A stretch of 43,817 bases of DNA, from IMG/VR virus record IMGVR_UViG_3300021963_000234, positions 1 through 43,817 of that record. One strand, written 5' to 3'. The notes beneath the pieces are model-generated. The model worked only from the letters and a program-made list of their open reading frames with translations, was not told the DNA's origin and did not search any database. Of this stretch, positions 2,863 to 43,817 are shown piece after piece (position 1 is the stretch's first letter; each line of letters starts with the position of its first letter). A program made the position numbers and the translations under genes. Source of the stretch: a virus.

Positions 2863-3082
2863 CCACAACCGCCTGCTCCGCGACACCCTCGGCGACCCCC
2901 TGACACTGGTCCGCGCCAACACTACCCGCTACGCTGTGTTGGGTCTTTGCTTTGCCGCCCTCGCTGTGTTGTACCCAGAGGTTTGGGCGTTCTTCGCGCT
3001 CTTTGTGCTGTCTGCGTTTCTGTTTCTTGCTTCATTCTCACTGTATGTATTGGAGGTTTACCATGTCAGAAATCGTCGCTAA
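2849..3082 (+). CDS. Small two-pass membrane protein
   Basis: 77 residues. After a soluble N-terminus (MLSSDHNRLLRDTLGDPLTL) come two hydrophobic segments, about 28-44 (YAVLGLCFAALAVLY) and 48-70 (WAFFALFVLSAFLFLASFSL), ending in a basic VRNRR tail. It should sit in the host inner membrane. Early phage membrane proteins of this size often act in superinfection exclusion or host takeover, but nothing here identifies this one. It overlaps both neighbours. Confidence 0.58.
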   Translation: MLSSDHNRLLRDTLGDPLTLVRANTTRYAVLGLCFAALAVLYPEVWAFFALFVLSAFLFLASFSLYVLEVYHVRNRR

Positions 3083-3692
3083 TCCCGCCTTCGCCGCCGC
3101 CGCCGCCGCGTTCCACCACCTGAGCAATCCGCCCAAGACCTCCAAGGTCAACGCGGGCGCCAAGTCTTACTGGTTCGCCCCGCTCCCCGAGATCCTTGAC
3201 GCGGTACGCCCCATCCTGGGCGCGCATGGGCTGTTTGTGCGGTTCCAGACCACGCCGCATGAGAATAACGTCCTTGTCACCTGTGAGATTGTCCACGCTT
3301 CCGGGGTGGTCGTGAGCGCGGCGTCGCTCGTCTCGGCAGGCGGTACCAATATGCAGGTAGTCGGCAGCGGCCTGACCTATGCGCGCCGCTACACCCTGAC
3401 CGCCGCCCTTGGCATCGCCGCCGATGACGATGACGACGGCGAAGCAACGACCCGGCCTGCCCCGAAGCCCGCCGCACCCTCACGCCCCGAGACACCCCCC
3501 GCTCACCTTGCCCGCTTTCTGGAGTGGTGTGGAACCAAGGGGATTGAACCTGCTGATGTGGATGCGTGGCTGGCCAAATCTGGGAAGCCGTCTCTTGGCG
3601 ATATGGATGCCGCGACCATCGAGAAGATGAAAGCCGCGCTTCTTACGCCCGACCTCGCCAACATCCTTAAGTGGCTTACGCGGAACGCCTGA
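3063..3692 (+). CDS. ERF-family single-strand annealing protein
   Basis: 209 residues. The N-terminal domain (about 10-125) carries the ERF signature: KTSKVNAGAKSYWFAPLPEI, a VRPILGAHGL segment, then GLTYARRYTLTAALGIAADD ending in an acidic DDDDDG run. ERF proteins anneal complementary single-stranded DNA during phage recombination and genome circularisation. A Pro-rich linker (about 130-150) joins a helical C-terminal region of unclear role. It starts inside the end of the membrane-protein gene with a GGAGG-type Shine-Dalgarno sequence. The RecU-like resolvase at the left edge would act downstream of it. Confidence 0.9.
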   Translation: MSEIVANPAFAAAAAAFHHLSNPPKTSKVNAGAKSYWFAPLPEILDAVRPILGAHGLFVRFQTTPHENNVLVTCEIVHASGVVVSAASLVSAGGTNMQVVGSGLTYARRYTLTAALGIAADDDDDGEATTRPAPKPAAPSRPETPPAHLARFLEWCGTKGIEPADVDAWLAKSGKPSLGDMDAATIEKMKAALLTPDLANILKWLTRNA

Positions 3693-5000: not shown

Positions 5001-5024
5001 AATTCTTCTATGAATTGTGCGTGT

Positions 5025-5059
5025 GTAGGCTTGACGGTGAGCCTACAGCGGGGCATATT
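5025..5059 (+). promoter_or_regulatory. Early promoter with palindromic operator, copy 1
   Basis: A -35 box TTGACG (5031-5036), a 17-bp spacer and a -10 box CATATT (5054-5059) form a good sigma70-type promoter. A perfect palindrome GTAGGCT-N8-AGCCTAC (5025-5031 and 5040-5046) covers the -35 box and part of the spacer, so a dimer bound there should block or alter RNA polymerase binding. It reads into the gene at 5082, which has a GGAG ribosome site. Three further copies occur downstream. Confidence 0.8.
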
Positions 5060-5081
5060 GATTGTACCAACGGAGAACACA

Positions 5082-5336
5082 ATGATTCACGACATCCGCA
5101 ACACCTTCGATGCCCTCTGGATTTCCCGCCCCCGCGAAGTCAAGATCCGCAAGCAGGTTGCTTACGATCGGTTCCTTGAAGGCGCCCTCAACACCGCTGA
5201 CTTCGGCACCCCGTCTGACAGCGCGGTTCGCAACTACGCTGACCACAACGCTAAAAACTGGTGGCTGCACATGGGCATCCTGACTGGCCAAATGCTGGGT
5301 AAAGCCCCACAGAAAGCAGTTGGGCGGTGGGCGTGA
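5082..5336 (+). CDS. Small unknown protein, first gene of promoter-1 unit
   Basis: 84 residues (MIHDIRNTFDALWISRPREV), basic, with an aromatic C-terminal part (NAKNWWLHMGILTGQML). The start is fixed by GGAG eight bases upstream and by the promoter 23 bases before the ATG. No family recognised. It overlaps the next gene (GTGA). Confidence 0.6.
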   Translation: MIHDIRNTFDALWISRPREVKIRKQVAYDRFLEGALNTADFGTPSDSAVRNYADHNAKNWWLHMGILTGQMLGKAPQKAVGRWA

Positions 5337-9875: not shown

Positions 9876-10330
9876 TCGTCCCTCTCTCCCACGTCGCCGA
9901 ACGAATCCAACTGGCCCGCCAATACCGGGGGCTGACACAAGGCGCCCTGGCCGAGCAACTCGTCCGCACCCTGCTCGCCGGCGCCGGTGCCACCCTCCCA
10001 CAGCATGCACCTGAGCCCCGCCCCAATGGCCCGCTGGACGTTGGCGGGGAGCGGTCGGGCTGGTCGGCAAGCTGGCCCGAGAAGGCCGAGGCCAGAACCG
10101 CCCAGGAAGCCGCCCAGCAGCCCCAGGAAGGGGCGTCACCCGCTGTAGACCTGCCTCGCTTCGTCCGGCTGACAAAGCGCGTCAGAGAGGCGCAGAGGGC
10201 GTATTTCAAGACCCGAGACGCCACCGTGTTGGCGCAGTCAAAGGCGCTGGAGGGCAAGCTCGATCAGTGGATCGATCTGCTTGCCCCAGAAAATAAAAAA
10301 CAATCAAGTTTATTCAAGGATAAAACATGA
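9872..10330 (+). CDS. HTH-like N-terminus with helical C-terminus
   Basis: 152 residues from a GTG overlapping the previous stop. Residues 5-32 (SHVAERIQLARQYRGLTQGA, LAEQLV) begin like an XRE-type HTH, but no typical recognition helix follows; the protein passes into a Pro/Ala/Glu linker. Residues about 95-150 (RFVRLTKRVREAQRAYFKTR, LEGKLDQWIDLL) are a charged helical hairpin. It may be a small regulator or a partner of the ParB-like protein that follows immediately. Confidence 0.52.
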   Translation: MIVPLSHVAERIQLARQYRGLTQGALAEQLVRTLLAGAGATLPQHAPEPRPNGPLDVGGERSGWSASWPEKAEARTAQEAAQQPQEGASPAVDLPRFVRLTKRVREAQRAYFKTRDATVLAQSKALEGKLDQWIDLLAPENKKQSSLFKDKT

Positions 10331-11991
10331 GCGGACTCTTTACCCCAGGCCACATCAAGCACCTCGATCTCAACCTGATCGTTGCCGACCCCGCGCTCCA
10401 GATGCGCGTAAACCGCAATATCGACGCCCTTGATTCGTATGTCGATGCGATTGCGGACGGCAAAGAATTGCCGCCGGTGATGACCTTTTTCGACGGCACA
10501 AGCTACTGGCTTGCCGACGGGTTCCACCGCTTGGAGGCGCATAAGCGACTCTCCAAAGCGACAATCCGGGCCGAGGTCCGGCCTGGCACCCGCGACAATG
10601 CGTTTTTGTTCGCCCTCTCGGCCAACGCAGAAAATGGGCTTCAACGCACCAACGCCGACAAACGGAAGGCGGTTCTGGCCGCGCTGGCCGATCCCAAAAT
10701 CGGGCGCGAGTCGGATCGGCAGATCGCGGCCCATTGTCGGGTGTCGCATACGTTTGTTCAGAATGTTCGGGCCGATATGACCGGTGGCGTACAATCGCCG
10801 GTCACTGTTCGCGTCCCCGAACAAACCGCCCTCCCGCCCGCACCTCCGGCGATCGGCTGGCCTGACGACGAAAAGGGGCGGATCCGCTGGGTTTCGGAAT
10901 GCGAGGATACTGAAATCTTGAGTCGGGCCTTGATGCAAAAACACAGCCCAGACCTGACGTTCGCGCTGGAAAAACAGCGGGGCTGGTTGGAGTCTCTGTC
11001 CCGGCTTGAATCAGCCGAGATCCTCAAGAGCTTTGAAAAGCTGGTCGGATACAACTACCCCCGTGAGCGCGACGTTGTTCGCGAAACGATCGTTTGCCGC
11101 CGTCTCGCGGCCCTGGCAACGTTGCCAGTCCCGTTTCCGCCTGATCAGATCGGGACCGAGATCGGGCATCTTGAGGAGGCGATTGACGCCTGCGATGCGA
11201 AGTGGAGTGTTGACGATTTTCGGCTTCTGCTGGAGATTTATGCGGTATCGCTCATTTCGCGTCGGTCGGGTCGGGATGCCCAGATTTCGCTCCTCAAACT
11301 CCCACTCCCAGAGAAATTGCATGGGATCGTCCAGGCCAAACTCAACAGCCTGGAGGCTAAGCGAGAGGAGGCTGCTGAGCCCGCCCAGCGCCGCCCGTTG
11401 TACCTGATCCAGACCGCTGACCTGGGCGCGGCGCTGACCGCTCTGGAGTTCGACAAGTCCAACATTGACGAGGTGGCGTCTGCGTTTTGCAACTGTAGCC
11501 CCCATATCGACACCGAGCGGGCCGCCCTGTACACCGGCTGGTTGGCGGCGGCGGGGGTCGAGTTTGAGACCTGTCCCTGGCCTGCTTGTGCGGGTCAGGA
11601 GGTCGTACAGGGTCGGTATTGCCCGCGTTGCCGGATGCGTTCGGAGGATGCAAAGAAACGCTGGGTCAATCACAAAAACACGGTGTTGTTGAATCTGGTC
11701 GGGATCGACGACTTCGCAAAAACCATCTGGTCGCTGCTGGAAGACTTGGAAAACGTCGGGGACAACGACGAGGTTTGTCCGGTCTGCAATACCGAGTATG
11801 ATCGCGGCACCCGCCGCCACACCAGCACCTGTCCAGTCCCCAAAGCCTCTCTCTGGATTGACCCGCTTGCCCGAGTGCTTTCCGGCAAGCTGGCCTTCCC
11901 CGACGCCGAACTGGAGGCCGATCTTCCTGACGAGGAGGATGGGGATCCCGAGGAAGATCCGGAGCTGACCGGGGGGGGTGAGCTTGATTGA
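10327..11991 (+). CDS. ParB/Srx-fold protein with Cys-rich C-terminus
   Basis: 554 residues. The N-terminal ParB/Srx domain is marked by LPPVMTFFDGTSYWLADGFH and the HR/EAHKRL that follows (about 48-75). A ParB-type HTH comes next (NADKRKAVLAALADPKIGRE then SDRQIAAHCRVSHTFVQNVR, about 107-150). The long C-terminal part is unfamiliar and holds two Cys clusters, CPWPACAGQ...YCPRCRMR (about 425-450) and CPVCNTEY...HTSTCP (about 495-515), with an acidic tail. ParB-like domains in phages act as DNA-binding proteins, CTP switches or nucleases; which applies here is not visible. AAGGATAAAAC precedes the ATG. Confidence 0.72.
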   Translation: MSGLFTPGHIKHLDLNLIVADPALQMRVNRNIDALDSYVDAIADGKELPPVMTFFDGTSYWLADGFHRLEAHKRLSKATIRAEVRPGTRDNAFLFALSANAENGLQRTNADKRKAVLAALADPKIGRESDRQIAAHCRVSHTFVQNVRADMTGGVQSPVTVRVPEQTALPPAPPAIGWPDDEKGRIRWVSECEDTEILSRALMQKHSPDLTFALEKQRGWLESLSRLESAEILKSFEKLVGYNYPRERDVVRETIVCRRLAALATLPVPFPPDQIGTEIGHLEEAIDACDAKWSVDDFRLLLEIYAVSLISRRSGRDAQISLLKLPLPEKLHGIVQAKLNSLEAKREEAAEPAQRRPLYLIQTADLGAALTALEFDKSNIDEVASAFCNCSPHIDTERAALYTGWLAAAGVEFETCPWPACAGQEVVQGRYCPRCRMRSEDAKKRWVNHKNTVLLNLVGIDDFAKTIWSLLEDLENVGDNDEVCPVCNTEYDRGTRRHTSTCPVPKASLWIDPLARVLSGKLAFPDAELEADLPDEEDGDPEEDPELTGGGELD

Positions 11992-13785: not shown

Positions 13786-14067
13786 ATGCCACGCACCCGC
13801 AACCTACCCGCCCCCGACAAGGGAGCCGCTGCCACCACAGCCCTGATTCGCCACATCCTTGCCACCACCACCCCCGACCTGGCAGAGCTCCGCGCTCGCG
13901 TCCAGATCCGCAACGACCTCCCCACAGGCTGGGCGGCTGACCTCGCCCGGCACCTCGGGCTGTCCCGCAGCCAGGCGAACGAGCTGCGTCGGTTCGCACG
14001 GGGGGAGCGTTCGGTTCCGAGGGCGGGGGCGTTGGCTTGGTTGTTCGCCGGGAATGGCGAATGTTGA
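13786..14067 (+). CDS. HTH regulator under operator copy 2
   Basis: 93 residues. The C-terminal half (WAADLARHLGLSRSQANELR then RFARGERSVPRAGALAWLF) is a clear XRE-type helix-turn-helix, with SRSQANELRRFARGE fitting the recognition helix and the following turn. The N-terminus (about 1-45) is helical. GGAG lies six bases before the ATG. A single HTH gene under its own copy of the operator, between two other copies, makes it a good candidate for the autoregulated protein that binds all four operators. That is inferred from position only. Confidence 0.68.
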   Translation: MPRTRNLPAPDKGAAATTALIRHILATTTPDLAELRARVQIRNDLPTGWAADLARHLGLSRSQANELRRFARGERSVPRAGALAWLFAGNGEC

Positions 14068-14080
14068 AAATGTTGCGTGT

Positions 14081-14115
14081 GTAGGCTTGACGGTGAGCCT
14101 ACACCAGAGCATATT
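14081..14115 (+). promoter_or_regulatory. Early promoter with palindromic operator, copy 3
   Basis: GTAGGCT-N8-AGCCTAC (14081-14087, 14096-14102) overlaps TTGACG (14087-14092); the spacer is 17 bp and the -10 CATATT (14110-14115). The block is nearly base-for-base the same as copy 1, including the TGCGTGT bases just upstream. It drives the gene at 14162 and, by read-through, the ribozyme and the genes at 14541 and 14875. Confidence 0.8.
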
Positions 14116-14125
14116 GATGTCACCA

Positions 14126-14147
14126 AGGGCGACGACAACAACGCCCT
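14126..14147 (+). promoter_or_regulatory. 5'-leader hairpin, copy A
   Basis: AGGGCG, a ten-base loop ACGACAACAA, then CGCCCT: a perfect 6-bp stem that would lie about five bases from the expected transcript start. The same 22 bases with flanking CACCA and GG recur at 15266. It may protect the 5' end of the mRNA or act as a binding site. It is absent from promoter copies 1 and 2. Confidence 0.65.
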
Positions 14148-14161
14148 GGACGGAGCAACCC

Positions 14162-35524: not shown

Positions 35525-37036
35525 TCAAGCGTTCATGCGCGCGAAGCCGTTGGGGGTGGGGGCGGACTTGGCGCGGGGTGGGAACAGTTCGTTGAGCAAG
35601 TACCCGGTCGCATCCACGCGATCCTTGATAGCCGCCTTGGGAAACGCGGCGTGCTCCCTTACAAAGTCCACGGCCCACGGCTCGCCGGGGAGGCTGTCTT
35701 CGCGGTCGTGGTGGTGCAGGGTCGTGTTGCCGCATTGGCAGGGGAGAACCACGCAGCCGGAAGCCACGAGGGGTTGCCAGCCCTGGGCACGGGCTACTTT
35801 GTCGCCTTCGGGCTGGCAAAGAACAAGGCCGGGGATTTCGGCGGTCAGCATTTCGGTGACGGGGCGGGCGGCGGCACGATCCTCGACGTACCAGCCGCGC
35901 GCCTTGGGGTAGCGGGTGCGGGCGGCGCGCATGGCCTCGATGAGTTGGGGGGCGGTCATGCGGCCCCGGACTTCGCCGCCAAGGTAGGCTTTTCCGGCGT
36001 ATAACCCGCCGTGAATGCCCGCATGGTAGGCGCCGGTCTGGTTGTCGCCAAAGGCCAGATCCCACCCCATCGCCTCGCGGGTGAAGGTAGAGGGCCATGC
36101 GCTGCGGTCGAGCCAGAGCCAGTCGCGGACGGGGAATAGCTCGCCGCCTCGGGCTTGCGGGGTCTGTCCGAGTTGGCCGGGGGCCTGGCTACCAAGGGCC
36201 GTTTCCAGGGCGGTGACGACAGGTTCAGGGAAGCGGAAGCGGTCAAGCAGGGAGCCGGGTTTGCGGCGTTCATCGCGGGGGTCTGCGTTGTGCGGGTCGT
36301 AGCGCATCGGCAGGATCAGGCGCTCGTAGCCACGTTTGAGGAGAGTGCCGGCGAGGTCGTTCTCGTGGAGGCGCTGCATGATGACCAGGATCCAGCCCTT
36401 GCGCTGGTCGTTCATGCGGGATTGCAGGGTTTGGTCGAAGATGGTTTGCGTTTCGGCCATGCGCTCGGCGATGCGTTCGGGGCTGCCAAGCGTCGCCTCT
36501 TTGGCGTCGTGGGGGTCGTCGATGATGATGCCGTCGCCACGCTTTCCGGTGATTCCCGAGGTCAGAGAGCCACAATAGCGGAAACCTCGGGCGGAGTTCT
36601 CAAAGTTCACCTTCTCGTTCTGGTCGCGGGCGAACGTCCAGGGGCGCGGGATGCGAGCAAGCAGGCGCTGGTATTCGGGGCTTTGGAGTAGGATTCGGGT
36701 GCGGCGGCTATCCCGGCTGGCAAGGTCGCCATCGTGGGACAGGAATAGCATCCGTTCGGCGGGGCGGTGGAGCCAGATCCAGGCGGGAAGAAAGACACAG
36801 GCAAGGAGGGATTTCGAGAAGCCGGGGGGAATGTTGATAACGAGTCGCCGAATTTTCCCCTCGGCAAGCTCTTGGAGGACTGTGCAGATGACCCGCATGT
36901 GCCATCCCCATTCCAGGGGGGCAGGCTCGACGACTGGCCAGAGAAGGCGAACGAACGCGGCGAAGTCTACCAGAGCGCGGCGTTCGGCTTGTTCCTGGGC
37001 AAGTTCGCAGTCTTCGATCAGCGCGGCGCGGTTCAT
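35525..37036 (-). CDS. terL: Terminase large subunit
   Basis: 503 residues. The ATPase part has a deviant Walker A, NIPPGFSKS (68-76), a Walker B GIIIDDPHD (169-177) and the RLHENDLAG coupling segment. The nuclease part has GWDLAFGD, a VEDRAAA segment and a final DRVDAT with the expected acidic residues. It packs DNA into the prohead and cuts it. Start overlaps the TerS stop (ATGA). Confidence 0.94.
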   Translation of the reverse strand: MNRAALIEDCELAQEQAERRALVDFAAFVRLLWPVVEPAPLEWGWHMRVICTVLQELAEGKIRRLVINIPPGFSKSLLACVFLPAWIWLHRPAERMLFLSHDGDLASRDSRRTRILLQSPEYQRLLARIPRPWTFARDQNEKVNFENSARGFRYCGSLTSGITGKRGDGIIIDDPHDAKEATLGSPERIAERMAETQTIFDQTLQSRMNDQRKGWILVIMQRLHENDLAGTLLKRGYERLILPMRYDPHNADPRDERRKPGSLLDRFRFPEPVVTALETALGSQAPGQLGQTPQARGGELFPVRDWLWLDRSAWPSTFTREAMGWDLAFGDNQTGAYHAGIHGGLYAGKAYLGGEVRGRMTAPQLIEAMRAARTRYPKARGWYVEDRAAARPVTEMLTAEIPGLVLCQPEGDKVARAQGWQPLVASGCVVLPCQCGNTTLHHHDREDSLPGEPWAVDFVREHAAFPKAAIKDRVDATGYLLNELFPPRAKSAPTPNGFARMNA

Positions 37037-37482
37037 TCGTCGTCGGGGCTGGGTTCCGAGGGGGGCGTGGCAGTGGCAGTCAGGGCGGCGCGGCGAGCGG
37101 CGAGTTCGTCGTCGGTCATCGTGGCAAGGTTACCAGAGATCTGGACCTGACGGGGCTGGTCCAAGCCGCCCCACTTTCCGAGTTGCGTCGCAGCTTTGAC
37201 GCGCACTTCTGGCTCAACATCGCTGTCAAGCATGGCAGTCAGTTCCTGCACAGCGCGTTGTGCGATGGGTTCGCGAATACGAGTGCGCCATGACGCTTGT
37301 TCTTCCTGGTATTCCTTCCATTTCCGCTGCCACGTTGGCCAGTTTTGCCATAGACTGACCTTGGACCGGGTAATCCCAACCTCTTTGGCAATTGCGGTGA
37401 TAGTCATGCCTTGGCAGAACAGCCCGAACGCTTTTTCCTGGTTCGGACCCCATTTGTGCCGTTTTGTCCCTGCTTGTTCCAT
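37033..37482 (-). CDS. terS: Terminase small subunit
   Basis: 149 residues from MEQAGTKRHKWGPNQEKAFG. The N-terminal HTH (GLFCQGMTITAIAKEVGITR then SKVSLWQNW) and the middle helical hairpin (REPIAQRAVQELTAMLDSDV followed by EPEVRVKAATQLGKWGG) are typical of TerS. It should recognise the packaging site. ATG starts just after the lipoprotein stop (TGAAATG). Confidence 0.86.
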   Translation of the reverse strand: MEQAGTKRHKWGPNQEKAFGLFCQGMTITAIAKEVGITRSKVSLWQNWPTWQRKWKEYQEEQASWRTRIREPIAQRAVQELTAMLDSDVEPEVRVKAATQLGKWGGLDQPRQVQISGNLATMTDDELAARRAALTATATPPSEPSPDDE

Positions 37483-37483
37483 T

Positions 37484-37741
37484 TCACATCCCCCATACCA
37501 CGCGAATGGTCCCACCGTCACACGGGACGGTCACAAAATCCCGCCCCAGCGCATACGGCACCGGCTCGCACCAATAGCCGCCGTCCGCCTCAGCGCAACG
37601 GACCAGCGTCAGAGGCTCTCCGAGGCGCTCCAGGGCGATAGAGCCAGCGGGGGGGCAGGTAGCCTCGACCAGTAGCGGCGGGGGCGCTGCGGTGTCGGTG
37701 AGGGGCAGGGAGGGGGCACAGGCGAGGAGGAGGAGGATCAT
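37484..37741 (-). CDS. Small predicted lipoprotein
   Basis: 85 residues (MILLLLACAPSLPLTDTAAP). A very short signal with an LLAC lipobox puts the mature N-terminal Cys at residue 8. It has four more Cys further on. It lies next to terminase, away from the endolysin. It could be a superinfection-exclusion lipoprotein or a small outer-membrane spanin; no partner inner spanin is seen nearby. Confidence 0.6.
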   Translation of the reverse strand: MILLLLACAPSLPLTDTAAPPPLLVEATCPPAGSIALERLGEPLTLVRCAEADGGYWCEPVPYALGRDFVTVPCDGGTIRVVWGM

Positions 37742-39445: not shown

Positions 39446-39760
39446 TTAGCACTCTTCCCCCCTCTTTGGCTTCGGCTCCCGCTCCCTCCCCCCTCGCCAC
39501 AACGCCCCGCCCTGCCACCGATACGCCCGTCGGTCGCGTCGCAGCTCGTCGAGCAGCCGCAGCGCCCGCGCCCGGTCGCACCCCAGCAGCTCGGCGGCCT
39601 CCTCCACCCATAGCCCACCCTCCCACTGGAGGGCAGCGGCAAGCACATCGCGGTCGGTTTCGCCGCATCCAAGGGCGCGTATACCCCCGTCGAGGCAGCG
39701 GACGCCGACGAGGCGGGTATCTGGGTTGGGACCGGGCTGGATGACGATTGGAGCCTTCAT
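39446..39760 (-). CDS. Small HTH protein next to the iteron region
   Basis: 104 residues (MKAPIVIQPGPNPDTRLVGV). Residues about 45-80 (LQWEGGLWVEEAAELLGCDR, ARALRLLDELRRDRRAY) form a winged-helix/HTH, with a basic tail (GGREREPKPKRGEEC). No Shine-Dalgarno sequence is seen. It is the first gene downstream of the iteron region, so it could be the protein that binds the TGGGACAC sites. That is inference from position. Confidence 0.55.
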   Translation of the reverse strand: MKAPIVIQPGPNPDTRLVGVRCLDGGIRALGCGETDRDVLAAALQWEGGLWVEEAAELLGCDRARALRLLDELRRDRRAYRWQGGALWRGGREREPKPKRGEEC

Positions 39761-40172
39761 AGCTTGGGTTTAGCCGAGTTTGCCACTGCCCGCGTGTCCG
39801 GTTGGGACACATCTGGGACACATCCATGCTGCAACACAGCAAGTGTCCCAAAATGTGTCCCAGAATATCCAGCCTCAAACCGTTGCCATTTCACACTTGG
39901 GACACTTGGGACACTTGGGACACTTTAACAAGGTGGTATATAAAAAGTCTTACCCTCAAATAATGACGGTATGTCCGTAAGCCCATTAAGAATACGACCG
40001 CCACGCGCAAAATGTGTCCCAAGTGTCCCAGGCCTCGAAACACATAGGTTCAAGGGTGCGTATTTTTGGGACACATCTGTCCCAGCAATGTGCGGGAAGT
40101 GTCCCAAGTGTCCCAAAAGCAAAAGGCGAACCCTCTACGGATTCGCCTCTGTCAAGCGCCAAGATTTGCGAT
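39761..40172. repeat. Iteron array with AT-rich core, probable replication origin
   Basis: A 412-bp region with no gene between the HTH gene and the primase. TGGGACAC occurs on the plus strand at 39803, 39814, 39898, 39907, 39916 and 40067, the middle three forming a 9-bp-period tandem (TTGGGACAC). The inverted form GTGTCCCA occurs at 39843, 39855, 40014, 40023, 40099 and 40108. Imperfect copies add to these. An AT-rich stretch with TATATAAAAA (39924-39990) lies in the middle. Iterons plus an AT-rich unwinding zone beside the replication genes is the usual phage or plasmid origin layout. Binding sites for a transcription regulator are the alternative. Confidence 0.78.
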
Positions 40173-41576
40173 TCAGTTGCTTGCCGGGCCGATCCCCTCC
40201 CACTTTCGGCCCGCGTTGCGAGAATCGTCCTGACGGAACCCGCGATCATTCAGCGACCGGGTAAGCCACTTATGAGAACGCGGCGTCAAACCGTTGTCTT
40301 TAGCCCAGGACACATAGAGCGCGTACAGCCGCTTGTTTTCAATCGTGAGCGCAGGATCGACCGTGCAGCATTCAGCGAGGAAGTCGGCAAGAATGTCCAT
40401 CTCCTGCTTGTAGTCCTCTGTCGCCTGCATCACCGCTTCGGGTGGAGCCAGTCCGATGCGCTGCCACTCCTTCAACCCATCAAGCGCCCACTGGAGAATC
40501 CCCGGTGCTTCCTTCCGAAGTCGATCCGGTAGCGCCTTGTCCCGTTGCTCTTTGGGGATCGTCACCGTGAACGGGATCATCCGAAGCCGCCGCCAGATCC
40601 CCTCATCCGTTCCCTTGACGATAGGCTTGTGGTTGGTGAGCATCCACAACTTGAAAGCCGGGATGAAGTTGAAGAACTCCCGGTTGAGGAATCGCGCCGT
40701 GATGGGGTCGCCGCCCGTTACCAGCTTGACCAGTGCCTCATCCAGCCCGCCACCCTCACCTGTCTCTGAGCAAGTCACCAACCGCGCCCCCGCCAACGCG
40801 GCCAGGTCGTTTGGGATCGCACCCTCACGCCGTCCCACAAACGTCTCCACCGCCGTCGTGGTTGCGTAGTCTCCCAGGATGTAGCTGATGGTGTCCATGA
40901 ACGTGCTCTTGCCATTGGCTCCGCGCCCATAGGCGATAAACATGCATTGTTCCTTGATAGAGCCTGTCAAGCAGTACCCGACCGCCCGCTGAAGGAACGC
41001 CACCAATTCCTGATCACCGCCCATGATGGTATCCAGAAACGCCAGCCACTCCGGGCACCCGCCCTTGTCCGCACTCACCCGCGCCAGTTTCGTCGCATAG
41101 TCCGACCGTCGCGGCTTGTGCCGGGTCATCGCGCCCAAATCGTAGGTCTGTGACGGCGTACTGAAACTCCAAAGATCCGCATCCCACACATCCTTACGCA
41201 CCGCGATCTTCTCATGGGCAGAGGCAAGTTCCACCAACGCCCGCACACTGGATGCCGACTCGCACCGGATCGCGTGCTTCAGCATGGCTTCCCGCCGCTT
41301 TTTCTGCTTCTCCGACTCCTCGGTCAGCCCCATCGTGTCGTCAGGCTCAGGCGGCGCCATATCGCGCCACAGGTCTGCCACCTGGGTTGCCACCCGCTGC
41401 ACCTGCTTGGTGTCGTCGGTTCGCCAGTGCGACCCGCTCCAGACCATCCAGCCGGTTCCGGGCATCACCCCGCACCACCGGAGATCGGCCCCGAACGTCT
41501 CCACAAAGAGCCTCGCGTTGCCCAGGTCCGTCAGGTTCATCGTCTGGGTTACGACTGTGTTTTCTTCGGTCATCAT
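40173..41576 (-). CDS. D5/P4-type primase-helicase
   Basis: 467 residues. The N-terminal region (about 20-175) is the D5_N type domain (DLRWCGVMPGTGWMVWSGSH, SSVRALVELASAHEKIAV). The SF3-like ATPase has Walker A GRGANGKST (217-225), then LVTCSETGEGGGLDEALVKL and LWMLTNHKPIVKGTDEGIWR. It should unwind DNA at the origin. It belongs with the iteron region at its 3' side and the SF2 helicase at its 5' side, whose stop it overlaps. Confidence 0.9.
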   Translation of the reverse strand: MMTEENTVVTQTMNLTDLGNARLFVETFGADLRWCGVMPGTGWMVWSGSHWRTDDTKQVQRVATQVADLWRDMAPPEPDDTMGLTEESEKQKKRREAMLKHAIRCESASSVRALVELASAHEKIAVRKDVWDADLWSFSTPSQTYDLGAMTRHKPRRSDYATKLARVSADKGGCPEWLAFLDTIMGGDQELVAFLQRAVGYCLTGSIKEQCMFIAYGRGANGKSTFMDTISYILGDYATTTAVETFVGRREGAIPNDLAALAGARLVTCSETGEGGGLDEALVKLVTGGDPITARFLNREFFNFIPAFKLWMLTNHKPIVKGTDEGIWRRLRMIPFTVTIPKEQRDKALPDRLRKEAPGILQWALDGLKEWQRIGLAPPEAVMQATEDYKQEMDILADFLAECCTVDPALTIENKRLYALYVSWAKDNGLTPRSHKWLTRSLNDRGFRQDDSRNAGRKWEGIGPASN

Positions 41577-43341
41577 TGTACGTCCTTAAGTGCGAGTAAA
41601 AAGAATTTCAGCTCCAACAAGAGTGCGGCCTCCCCTTTGGTCAGCCCTTCCCGTCGCAGATTGAACTTCCGTAACGAGTCCAACTGCTTCTCTGTGGCTG
41701 GCTCTGTCTGCCAGCCCCGATCCAAAGCCTGTGCATCGGACTGGATGCAGACCGACGCTTCACATTCTGCAAAGGCCCCGCGCCGTAACAGCCGAGGAAT
41801 GCCGTTGCGCCCATTGGCATCCTTGCACCGCTCCCACGCTTCCCAGACCCCATCCTCAACCTTCCGAACAATGGCAGATGTGGTGTTTGTCCTGGCAATA
41901 AACGTCTTGCCTGCCTTCGTTTCGTAGGTGTACCATGCCGTCTTGCGGTCTGGAAAAAGCGACACCTCGAAGTGATTGGCGCCCAGAACCGACGGCGCAA
42001 TCAGCATCACCTTCGGCTCTGCCGCCTTGGCAATGAGAGCCAGATCCTCGGAAGGAACCCAGGAAGCAGGCCGCGTTTCCCAAGCAACCAGCGCCTCCCC
42101 CTCACACTCATCCTCTACCCATCCCCGAACTTCCTCCACGTTCCCATTTCCCCACGCTTTCTGGCGCCGGTGGCGAACAACATCATTCGGTTTGAGCTTT
42201 GCCTTGACCTTTGGCCCCCCGCTCATGTCGTGCATCGAGGCCAGACTATGCGTGTCCGAGTTCGCCACGAAGTCGATGACCAGCCCACGCTCCTTGCCCG
42301 GAAAGAGCCGCGTCACCCGCCCCACCTGTTGCGCGTATAGACCTCTGGATTCTGTGGGCCGTACCAACAGAACCGCCTCCGTCTCGGGCGCATCAAATCC
42401 CTCTGTCAGCAGCCCACAGTTGCAAAGAACCTGGATCTCCTTGCGTTTGTACGCCGCGATCTTCTCGGCCCGCTTCTTGTCATCCGCCCACACTACATCT
42501 GCCTTCACGCCCGCAGCCTGCAATGCCTCTGCCAGATGGAAGCATGGAGTACCGTCACACTGAACGCAATCGCCTGTTTTCCGCTCGCAAGTTCCAGATA
42601 CTTCTCTGCCACCACATCACACCGCTCTGGGGTATCCACCAGCTTTTCCAACTTCTCCTCATCATCCGGGTCCACCCCATCCAGATCCAGCTCCGTCTCC
42701 ACTTGGATGCCCACCACCGGACAAAGCGCCCCGTCTGTGATGGCATCGGCGAGGCTATACTCATAGACCAGCGCCTCAAAGGTCTTACCCAGTCCCTCCG
42801 TCTTGCCTTTGGGCGCTGACCGGAAAGGCGTTGCCGTGAACCCGATGTGCTTCCACTTCGGGTTGACCTCTCCTACCCGCCCATAGATCGCCCGGTAGCT
42901 CTTGGCGGTCGCATGATGTGCCTCATCCGTGACCACGAAATCAAAGTGCCCCAACGTCGGCAACCGCCTTTTGTGCAGCGACTGGACCGAGGCAAACACA
43001 CACTGAGCGTCTACCTCGTTGACCTTGCCCTTGACCTTGCCGAGCGTCAGCGCCCCGTCAATCTGACGCACGCGCCCCATCACATCGTCAATCAGCTCGT
43101 CTCGGTGGACAAGGAACAGCGTCCGCTTTCCAGCCCATGCCGCCTTGACGACCATACTGGCGATCATCGTTCCCTTCCCGGTTCCGGTTGCCGCCGAAAT
43201 CAGGATCGCCCGATGGTTGGGAAGTGCCGTCCGAATCGCTAACATCGCCTCAGTCTGCCATCGTCGCGGGGTAGCCCCGTCCGCCAGTGGCACCAAAGAC
43301 GCACTACGAGTATCCGGCTTTGCCGGTTCATTCTGCAACAT
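41573..43341 (-). pseudogene. SF2 DEAD/DEAH helicase, interrupted by a -1 frameshift
   Basis: Two frames make one helicase. The first (from ATG at 43341, with GGAGAG upstream) has Walker A ATGTGKGT (51-58), DEAH (139-142) and TATP (169-172). It leaves frame after KQAIAFSVTVLHAS and stops at 42505. The second frame continues with HLAEALQAAGVKADVVWADD, then LLTEGFDAPETEAVLLVRPT and QQVGRVTRLF (motifs V-VI). A one-base difference near 42535 restores one protein of about 589 residues. No slippery heptamer is seen, so mutation or assembly error is likelier than programmed shifting. Role: DNA unwinding in replication or recombination. Confidence 0.82.
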
Positions 43342-43358
43342 TGTCTCTCCAGGGTTTC

Positions 43359-43425
43359 GTCTCTCCCACCCCACCGCCCGGGGATCAGTCGGGCGGGCGC
43401 CGTCTCAGGGCGCGTGGGGAGAGAC
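43359..43425. repeat. Intergenic inverted repeat with nested hairpin
   Basis: GTCTCTCCCAC (43359-43369) is matched by GTGGGGAGAGAC (43414-43425), with one bulged base. Inside, CGCCCG (43375-43380) pairs with CGGGCG (43390-43395). A further direct copy, GTCTCTCC, is at 43343 and overlaps the helicase Shine-Dalgarno sequence. There is no T-run on either side. It may be an attenuator, a processing site or a protein-binding site between PrimPol and helicase. Confidence 0.55.
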
Positions 43426-43432
43426 ACGTTTG

Positions 43433-43817
43433 CTATATCACGCGCTCACCAGGAAGCAACCTTGGCCGCTCCACACCCGCATTCCAACCGTCACAAAACG
43501 CCTTCCGCGCTTCCCTCTCCCGTGCCCCCACCACCTGCGACCAGGCCGCAACCATCGCCGACTCAATCGCCGCCACATCGACGCCGGGCCGGTAGTACCC
43601 GCCCAACTTGTACGCCGACCTCAGCATCTGCCGATGCCGCCCCCCCTCTGGACAGGTCAACAGCCGATCCACCTCGCCCTTGAGCGCCCCCTCCAGATAC
43701 CGGGCCGCCCGCCCCTCCCCAAGCGGCAACAACACCACCGGCTGAACGGCCATCTTTGGCGGTTCCTTCCGCAACAACCCCAGCAACTCCGGCCCCGCCT
43801 CGGCAATCTCGCCCCCC
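43433..43817 (-). CDS. Primase-polymerase C-terminal part, 5' end cut by window edge
   Basis: The frame is open to the window edge; about 127 residues are visible. YLEGALKGEVDRLLTCPEGG then RHRQMLRSAYKLGGYYRPGV and EREARKAFCDGWNAGVERPR match the helical region that follows the catalytic domain in bifunctional DNA primase/polymerase proteins. The catalytic part lies outside the window. It is the first gene of the replication module. Confidence 0.72.
   Translation of the reverse strand, partial: GGEIAEAGPELLGLLRKEPPKMAVQPVVLLPLGEGRAARYLEGALKGEVDRLLTCPEGGRHRQMLRSAYKLGGYYRPGVDVAAIESAMVAAWSQVVGAREREARKAFCDGWNAGVERPRLLPGERVI

Follow-up and report, generated by a model that had tools for sequence, protein, structure and literature searches.

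Positions 39761-40172 of an uncultured phage record hold only short overlapping ORFs, and the block is crowded with copies of one short word. What is this block, and which protein reads it? The window, i.e. the whole stretch of DNA analyzed, comprises all 43,817 bases of IMG/VR record IMGVR_UViG_3300021963_000234, and since terminal repeats are absent from it, the genome may be incomplete. The original prediction proposed that the block is a replication origin and left two candidate initiators, a P4-type helicase and a small helix-turn-helix (HTH) protein. We analyzed the array, its gene neighborhood and its counterparts in other genomes.

A two-way iteron array surrounds an AT-rich core

The window contains 12 copies of the word TGGGACAC, six in each direction, and every copy lies within a 313-bp span (39803-40115): at 39803, 39814, 39898, 39907, 39916 and 40067 on the plus strand, and at 39843, 39855, 40014, 40023, 40099 and 40108 on the minus strand. 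No copy was found elsewhere in the window; shuffling the whole record gave 2.2 copies (maximum 8), scattered along its length. The seven-base word TGGGACA has a thirteenth copy at 40078 (minus strand), so that the two-way array comprises 13 copies of TGGGACA(C) at 39803-40116. At least six sites in each direction around an AT-rich core had been predicted, and this was borne out. The core (39924-40012), lying between the innermost facing sites, is 58% AT versus 37% for the record, and is likely the melting site. On one side it is flanked by three plus-strand copies (39898-39923) at 39898, 39907 and 39916, exactly the strict 9-bp tandem that had been described, and on the other by two minus-strand copies 9 bp apart (40014-40030).

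Counted from the center (39968) and read along the direction of the helicase gene, the left half has forward sites at -145, -136 and -114, a reverse site at -100, and forward sites at -60 and -51; the right half has reverse sites at +51, +60 and +69, forward sites at +108 and +120, and reverse sites at +153 and +164. The layout is thus mirror-like, and with its outer sites the array spreads over about 320 bases around the AT-rich stretch. Its first site lies 57 bp past the stop codon of the helicase gene (40173-41576). Folding of the core as a DNA hairpin was not supported (z of -0.26), an Rfam search of the region gave no matches, and no promoter-like sites were found in it. The helicase stop codon is separated from the array by one terminator-like hairpin (40122-40150, minus strand); 0.8 were expected by chance.

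Gene neighborhood of the array

The genes running into the gap are on the minus strand and encode a possible primase fragment, an SF2 helicase and a D5/P4-type helicase. The original prediction had named a PrimPol, an SF2 helicase and a P4-type helicase upstream of the array. The last of these is indeed present as a 467-aa SF3 helicase (40173-41576, minus strand) with matches to Pfam D5_N, DUF5906 and Pox_D5, which we propose as initiator and replicative helicase. Two overlapping ORFs make up the SF2 helicase, matching adjacent portions of the family phrog_16: an N-terminal part (42505-43374, minus strand; phrog_16 271-505) and a C-terminal part (41573-42523, minus strand; phrog_16 513-659). 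Their overlap (42505-42523) contains a one-base frame break, either real or a sequencing error. The PrimPol shrank to a possible PrimPol-like C-terminal fragment (43433-43817, minus strand); it is truncated by the contig end, gave no Pfam match and weakly matches the PrimPol-D5 fusion of L179, a related locus described below.

The small HTH-like ORF (39446-39760, minus strand) borders the array on its other side, and beyond this ORF are the terminase genes (37033-37521 and 35525-37036), about 2.3 kb downstream of the array, followed by portal and Mu-like head genes. No Pfam match to a Rep_3-type initiator, the kind that accompanies iterons in RepA/TrfA-type plasmid origins, was obtained for 40173-41576 or 39446-39760. 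GC skew, which had been suggested as a check, showed a cumulative minimum at 25.3 kb and a slope change at ~37 kb, and the turning point expected at 40 kb was absent; because the phage genome is small and its genes are strand-biased, this result neither supports nor refutes an origin.

Elsewhere in the window, an 87-bp repeat occurs in three plus-strand copies (5007-5093, 14063-14149 and 15203-15289) and contains the near-palindrome TGTAGGCTTGACGGTGAGCCTACA, which is exact in two copies and has 3 mismatches in the third; none would be expected by chance. The near-palindrome overlaps a TTGACG, 17 bp, CATATT arrangement, and the repeat resembles an operator superimposed on early promoters. A ParB-like protein (10327-11991, plus strand; phrog_1033) is also encoded in the phage's early region, and an Erf-type annealing protein is encoded at 2952-3692.

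The layout is kept behind related helicases while the word changes

One locus found via its array, L179, encodes a helicase 47% identical to that of the record. We used the L179 protein, and no motif, as the query for a further search, which returned eight loci with helicases 64-100% identical to L179 (L386-L393, of which L386 is the contig of L179 itself) and one distant locus. In all eight, repeats start right behind the helicase stop codon. The L387 contig ends inside its array; the seven full arrays are all mirror-symmetric. In L386 and L389-L393 the inner sites lie at about ±48 and ±56 bp and the outer sites at about ±100 and ±112 bp, around a core of 82-83 bp; L393 has an additional outer pair, and one outer site of L391 is missing by the strict word. 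L388 retains the mirror at wider spacing. The cores are 54-60% AT, versus 33-35% for the loci. The iteron word differs among these relatives (TGGGACAC, TAGGACAC, CGGACACT or GGGGACGG, with L387 and L388 mixed), and within a genome the shift affects nearly all copies together.

Words that change in concert within a fixed layout are expected for sites that are read by one trans-acting protein. The proteins of these relatives vary more in their C-terminal region than in the ATPase core, which fits co-change of protein and word; this co-variation rests on a few sequences, in which the residues that choose the word are not proven. From these sequence comparisons, it is well supported that the array has followed the D5 helicase through evolution, its geometry fixed and its word changing. 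The series L386-L393 would then be a natural experiment on the co-change of initiator and site, and could reveal which winged-helix residues choose which base.

In the record, the inner and outer pairs occupy nearly the same places as in the relatives, with some outer sites flipped, and sites are added at both ends, so that the total exceeds the eight-site layout. One side has an additional inner copy, which displaces the outer pair by ~9 bp.

A near-identical contig, L036, contains part of the array and encodes a product 93% identical to that of the small ORF. Only 2 of 251 bp differ between L036 and the record in the array region, both outside the sites, compared with 26 differences over 315 bp in the alignment of the small ORF; the array is thus kept far more strongly than the adjoining gene. 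The first ~80 bases of L036 (1-80) fold back, being reverse-complementary to a stretch further along its array; this is probably an assembly artefact arising from the inverted repeats.

Similarity to the annotated origin of phage A2 and the origin reading

In the GenBank record of Lactobacillus phage A2, a rep_origin is annotated at the 3' end of the D5 primase gene. Here the word is ACGGGAGG, ACGGGA(GG), and the sites lie at about -136, -118, -106 and -42 on one side and +42, +50, +106 and +118 on the other (±1 bp), around a 72-bp core of 79% AT. As in the record, where these genes are on the minus strand, the order is SF2 helicase, D5 protein and then origin, and the D5 proteins are ~41% identical over the matched part. 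Both arrays are mirrored, with inner pairs at about ±41 to ±60 and outer pairs at about ±100 to ±120. They differ in the word (TGGGACAC in the record) and in the flipping of some outer sites in the record, and the A2 D5 protein is larger (2.3-kb gene), with an N-terminal part ahead of the helicase. Facing inner pairs at about ±41 to ±65 were also seen in Acinetobacter phage 4316 (AGTGACGTT), TM4 (ATGACGG), Milly (TGGACAGA) and others; several other phages in the sample had no conspicuous array behind the D5 gene. Facing arrays are therefore common behind the D5 gene in this sample, not universal.

Because the array tracks the helicase with fixed geometry and changing word, and because this geometry matches that of the A2 rep_origin, the prediction of a replication origin is supported. 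We put the probability at about 0.87 that the array is the phage replication origin, with the D5/P4-type helicase as its reader and two facing hexamers melting the core. By analogy with known systems, the helicase made from the gene just upstream would bind the 9-base TGGGACACT iterons by its C-terminal winged helix. Since the sites form two sets that face each other across the AT-rich core, two hexamers could be loaded in opposite orientation and would melt the core; two forks would then start and leave, together with the primase and the SF2 helicase of the same gene cluster. The absence of a GC skew turn, the flipped outer sites, the D5 phages without an evident array, the small number of sequences behind the protein-word co-variation, and the fact that TGGGACA arrays behind other helicase classes do not generally share an AT-rich core count against the origin reading. 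If it is correct, an uncultured phage would have gained a clear origin and a named candidate initiator.

We also considered a role in copy control or incompatibility, as parts of P4 crr may have: the helicase would bind the array, and replication would start elsewhere. The number of sites and the extra, flipped outer sites go beyond the eight-site layout of the relatives, as this explanation would accommodate, and P4 has two separate cis elements. Nevertheless, the record, which is possibly incomplete, contains one array of TGGGACAC and no second, and the AT-rich core with facing sites and the match to the annotated A2 rep_origin also speak against this explanation. We therefore consider copy control unlikely.

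The helicase as predicted initiator

A structural model of the record's helicase, built with 17 sequences, reached a pLDDT of 88.7. In residues 395-467 (40176-40394, minus strand), the proposed iteron reader, it predicts a helix, strand, helix, helix, strand, strand order (H-E-H-H-E-E), which is that of a winged helix; Pox_D5 matches residues 391-449. The closest solved structures over most of the chain were ASFV PrimPol (Z of 30.6, rmsd of 4.0, 455 residues), the SaPI5 primase-helicase (Z of 29.8, rmsd of 6.3 over 387 residues) and poxvirus D5/E5, and a sequence profile search gave the same closest relatives. The profile match of the C-terminal part to the RFX1 winged helix was weak and not significant (E of 0.11).

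The competing idea, in which the array is the binding region of the small HTH protein (39446-39760) and this protein acts as initiator or regulator, draws on the gene's position next to the array and on the helix-turn-helix suggested for the protein earlier. However, this ORF has no Pfam or PHROG match, among all loci compared it was found only in the near-identical L036, it is missing beside the arrays of the helicase relatives, and it diverges much faster than the array, all of which make such a role very improbable. Because, among the loci compared, the small ORF accompanies no array other than that of L036, the D5/P4-type helicase itself is the most likely initiator, through its modelled C-terminal winged helix. 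Between the two candidates left by the original prediction, the choice thus falls on the helicase, with its predicted winged helix and its kinship to SaPI5, D5 and ASFV PrimPol, and away from the HTH protein.

Still less credible is that the array serves as a packaging (pac/cos) site for the terminase small subunit or as a late-gene operator. Terminase genes do lie ~2.3 kb downstream, and a terminase gene is also near the array of Acinetobacter phage 4316. On the other hand, arrays accompany helicase genes in many contigs, and a search around the arrays of the relatives compared found nothing matching TerS or TerL of the record, which is weak evidence given the short flanks; no promoter-like site was found in the region.

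TGGGACA behind other helicase classes

Two-way TGGGACA arrays were found in at least 120 stretches of viral contigs, and a triple-site pattern of the same word in at least 119 bacterial and archaeal genome stretches, where a simple base-counting estimate gives ~4 by chance. The matches listed include 232 loci with at least 4 sites within 400 bp, and in 116 of these 232 a gene of at least 240 aa ends (3') within 150 bp of the array. Representatives of these loci (61) included 16 with DUF5906, 10 with DUF927, 10 with VapE, 8 with AAA_25 and 7 with D5_N, with overlaps and some unrelated genes; because the pattern also picked up some chance or cellular loci (sparse arrays beside integrase, tRNA synthetase and other genes), these family counts hold for the 61 representatives only. 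The word is thus found behind at least five helicase classes. Triple arrays among the matches listed come from many phyla, with Methanosarcina, Bacteroidales, Victivallales and Legionella represented; several run in one direction only, and some have no large gene ending beside them.

Layouts differ among the helicase classes, and TGGGACA arrays behind classes other than D5 do not generally have an AT-rich core. Behind VapE-type genes (L181, L178 and L224) TGGGACA modules recur every 57 bp (reverse 29, forward 50 and 61, then reverse 86, forward 107 and 118, and so on), a layout that differs from the D5-class mirror. C-terminal profiles of the classes showed no convincing homology (best pair D5-VapE, probability 37%), and within 4.5 kb no shared neighbor gene was found other than the primase-helicase proteins themselves. 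A structural model of the AAA_25-class protein L285 was poor (pLDDT 49.8) and was set aside.

As controls, the shuffled word GAGTGCA gave no loci, and the reversed word ACAGGGT, intended as a chance control, gave 43 further loci, of which those with an adjacent large gene lie almost all beside one other family of replication proteins. In L291-L329, two-way ACAGGGT arrays stand behind DUF5906-type genes of 800-990 aa whose C-terminus resembles KLLTVFHV...RFRDLADIK. The word AGTGACG, from Acinetobacter phage 4316, gave 40 loci, mostly beside D5 genes. Loci in these samples were selected for their motif, so the counts say nothing about how frequently a given class employs a given word.

It is possible, if rather doubtful, that unrelated helicases (D5, VapE, DUF927, AAA_25 RepA-like and DUF5906) have come to share TGGGACA as an iteron word behind their genes because they have a hidden DNA-reading domain in common, have exchanged domains or rely on the same partner; if true, phages and islands would share an origin code across helicase classes. 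That a host DNA-binding protein reads the sites would also explain one word behind at least five classes of unrelated helicases in many phyla including Methanosarcina, but the word differs between close relatives and many other words occur in the same layout, leaving this the least credible explanation of all.

Comparison with known origin systems

The array appears to be the origin of a self-loading helicase, a type known from SaPI/PICI islands, SCCmec and P4, and this classification is by analogy. In satellite phage P4, the alpha protein combines primase and helicase in one chain, and the origin system has two separate cis elements. Alpha is a P4-type helicase whose winged-helix origin-binding domain reportedly reads short iterons. 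The protein of the record is also a P4-type helicase with a predicted winged helix; in contrast to alpha, it has 467 aa, begins at the D5_N domain and is not primase and helicase in one.

In SaPI and PICI islands, the origin sits immediately 3' of the rep helicase gene, and Rep is a D5- or DUF927-type helicase with a C-terminal DNA-binding domain (PMC6092414, PMC7581432). As with SaPI5 Rep and SaPIbov1 Rep, the candidate origin of the record lies immediately 3' of the helicase gene. The encoded protein is likewise a D5_N/DUF5906/Pox_D5 helicase with a modelled C-terminal winged helix, a likeness at the level of the fold, and the SaPI5 primase-helicase is among its closest solved relatives. The record differs in that its helicase has no fused primase and its array has its own word, TGGGACAC. 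With portal, terminase and Mu-like head genes, it is moreover a tailed phage and no satellite island, i.e., not a helper-dependent satellite of the PICI kind.

The C-terminal domain of SCCmec Cch2, on its own, binds the putative origin located behind the gene for Cch2 (PMC7581432). Cch2 is also a D5-family helicase; its system differs in having three AAGTG iterons behind the gene, a chromosomal cassette as its setting and an A-family polymerase as primase.

The PICI origin layout was described as being in "no other known bacterial replicon" (PMC6092414). Our results suggest that a layout once called unique to PICIs also occurs in ordinary tailed phages. The origin design itself was already known from phage satellites and phage A2; of further interest here are a fixed layout with a changing word among close relatives and one word shared across helicase classes.
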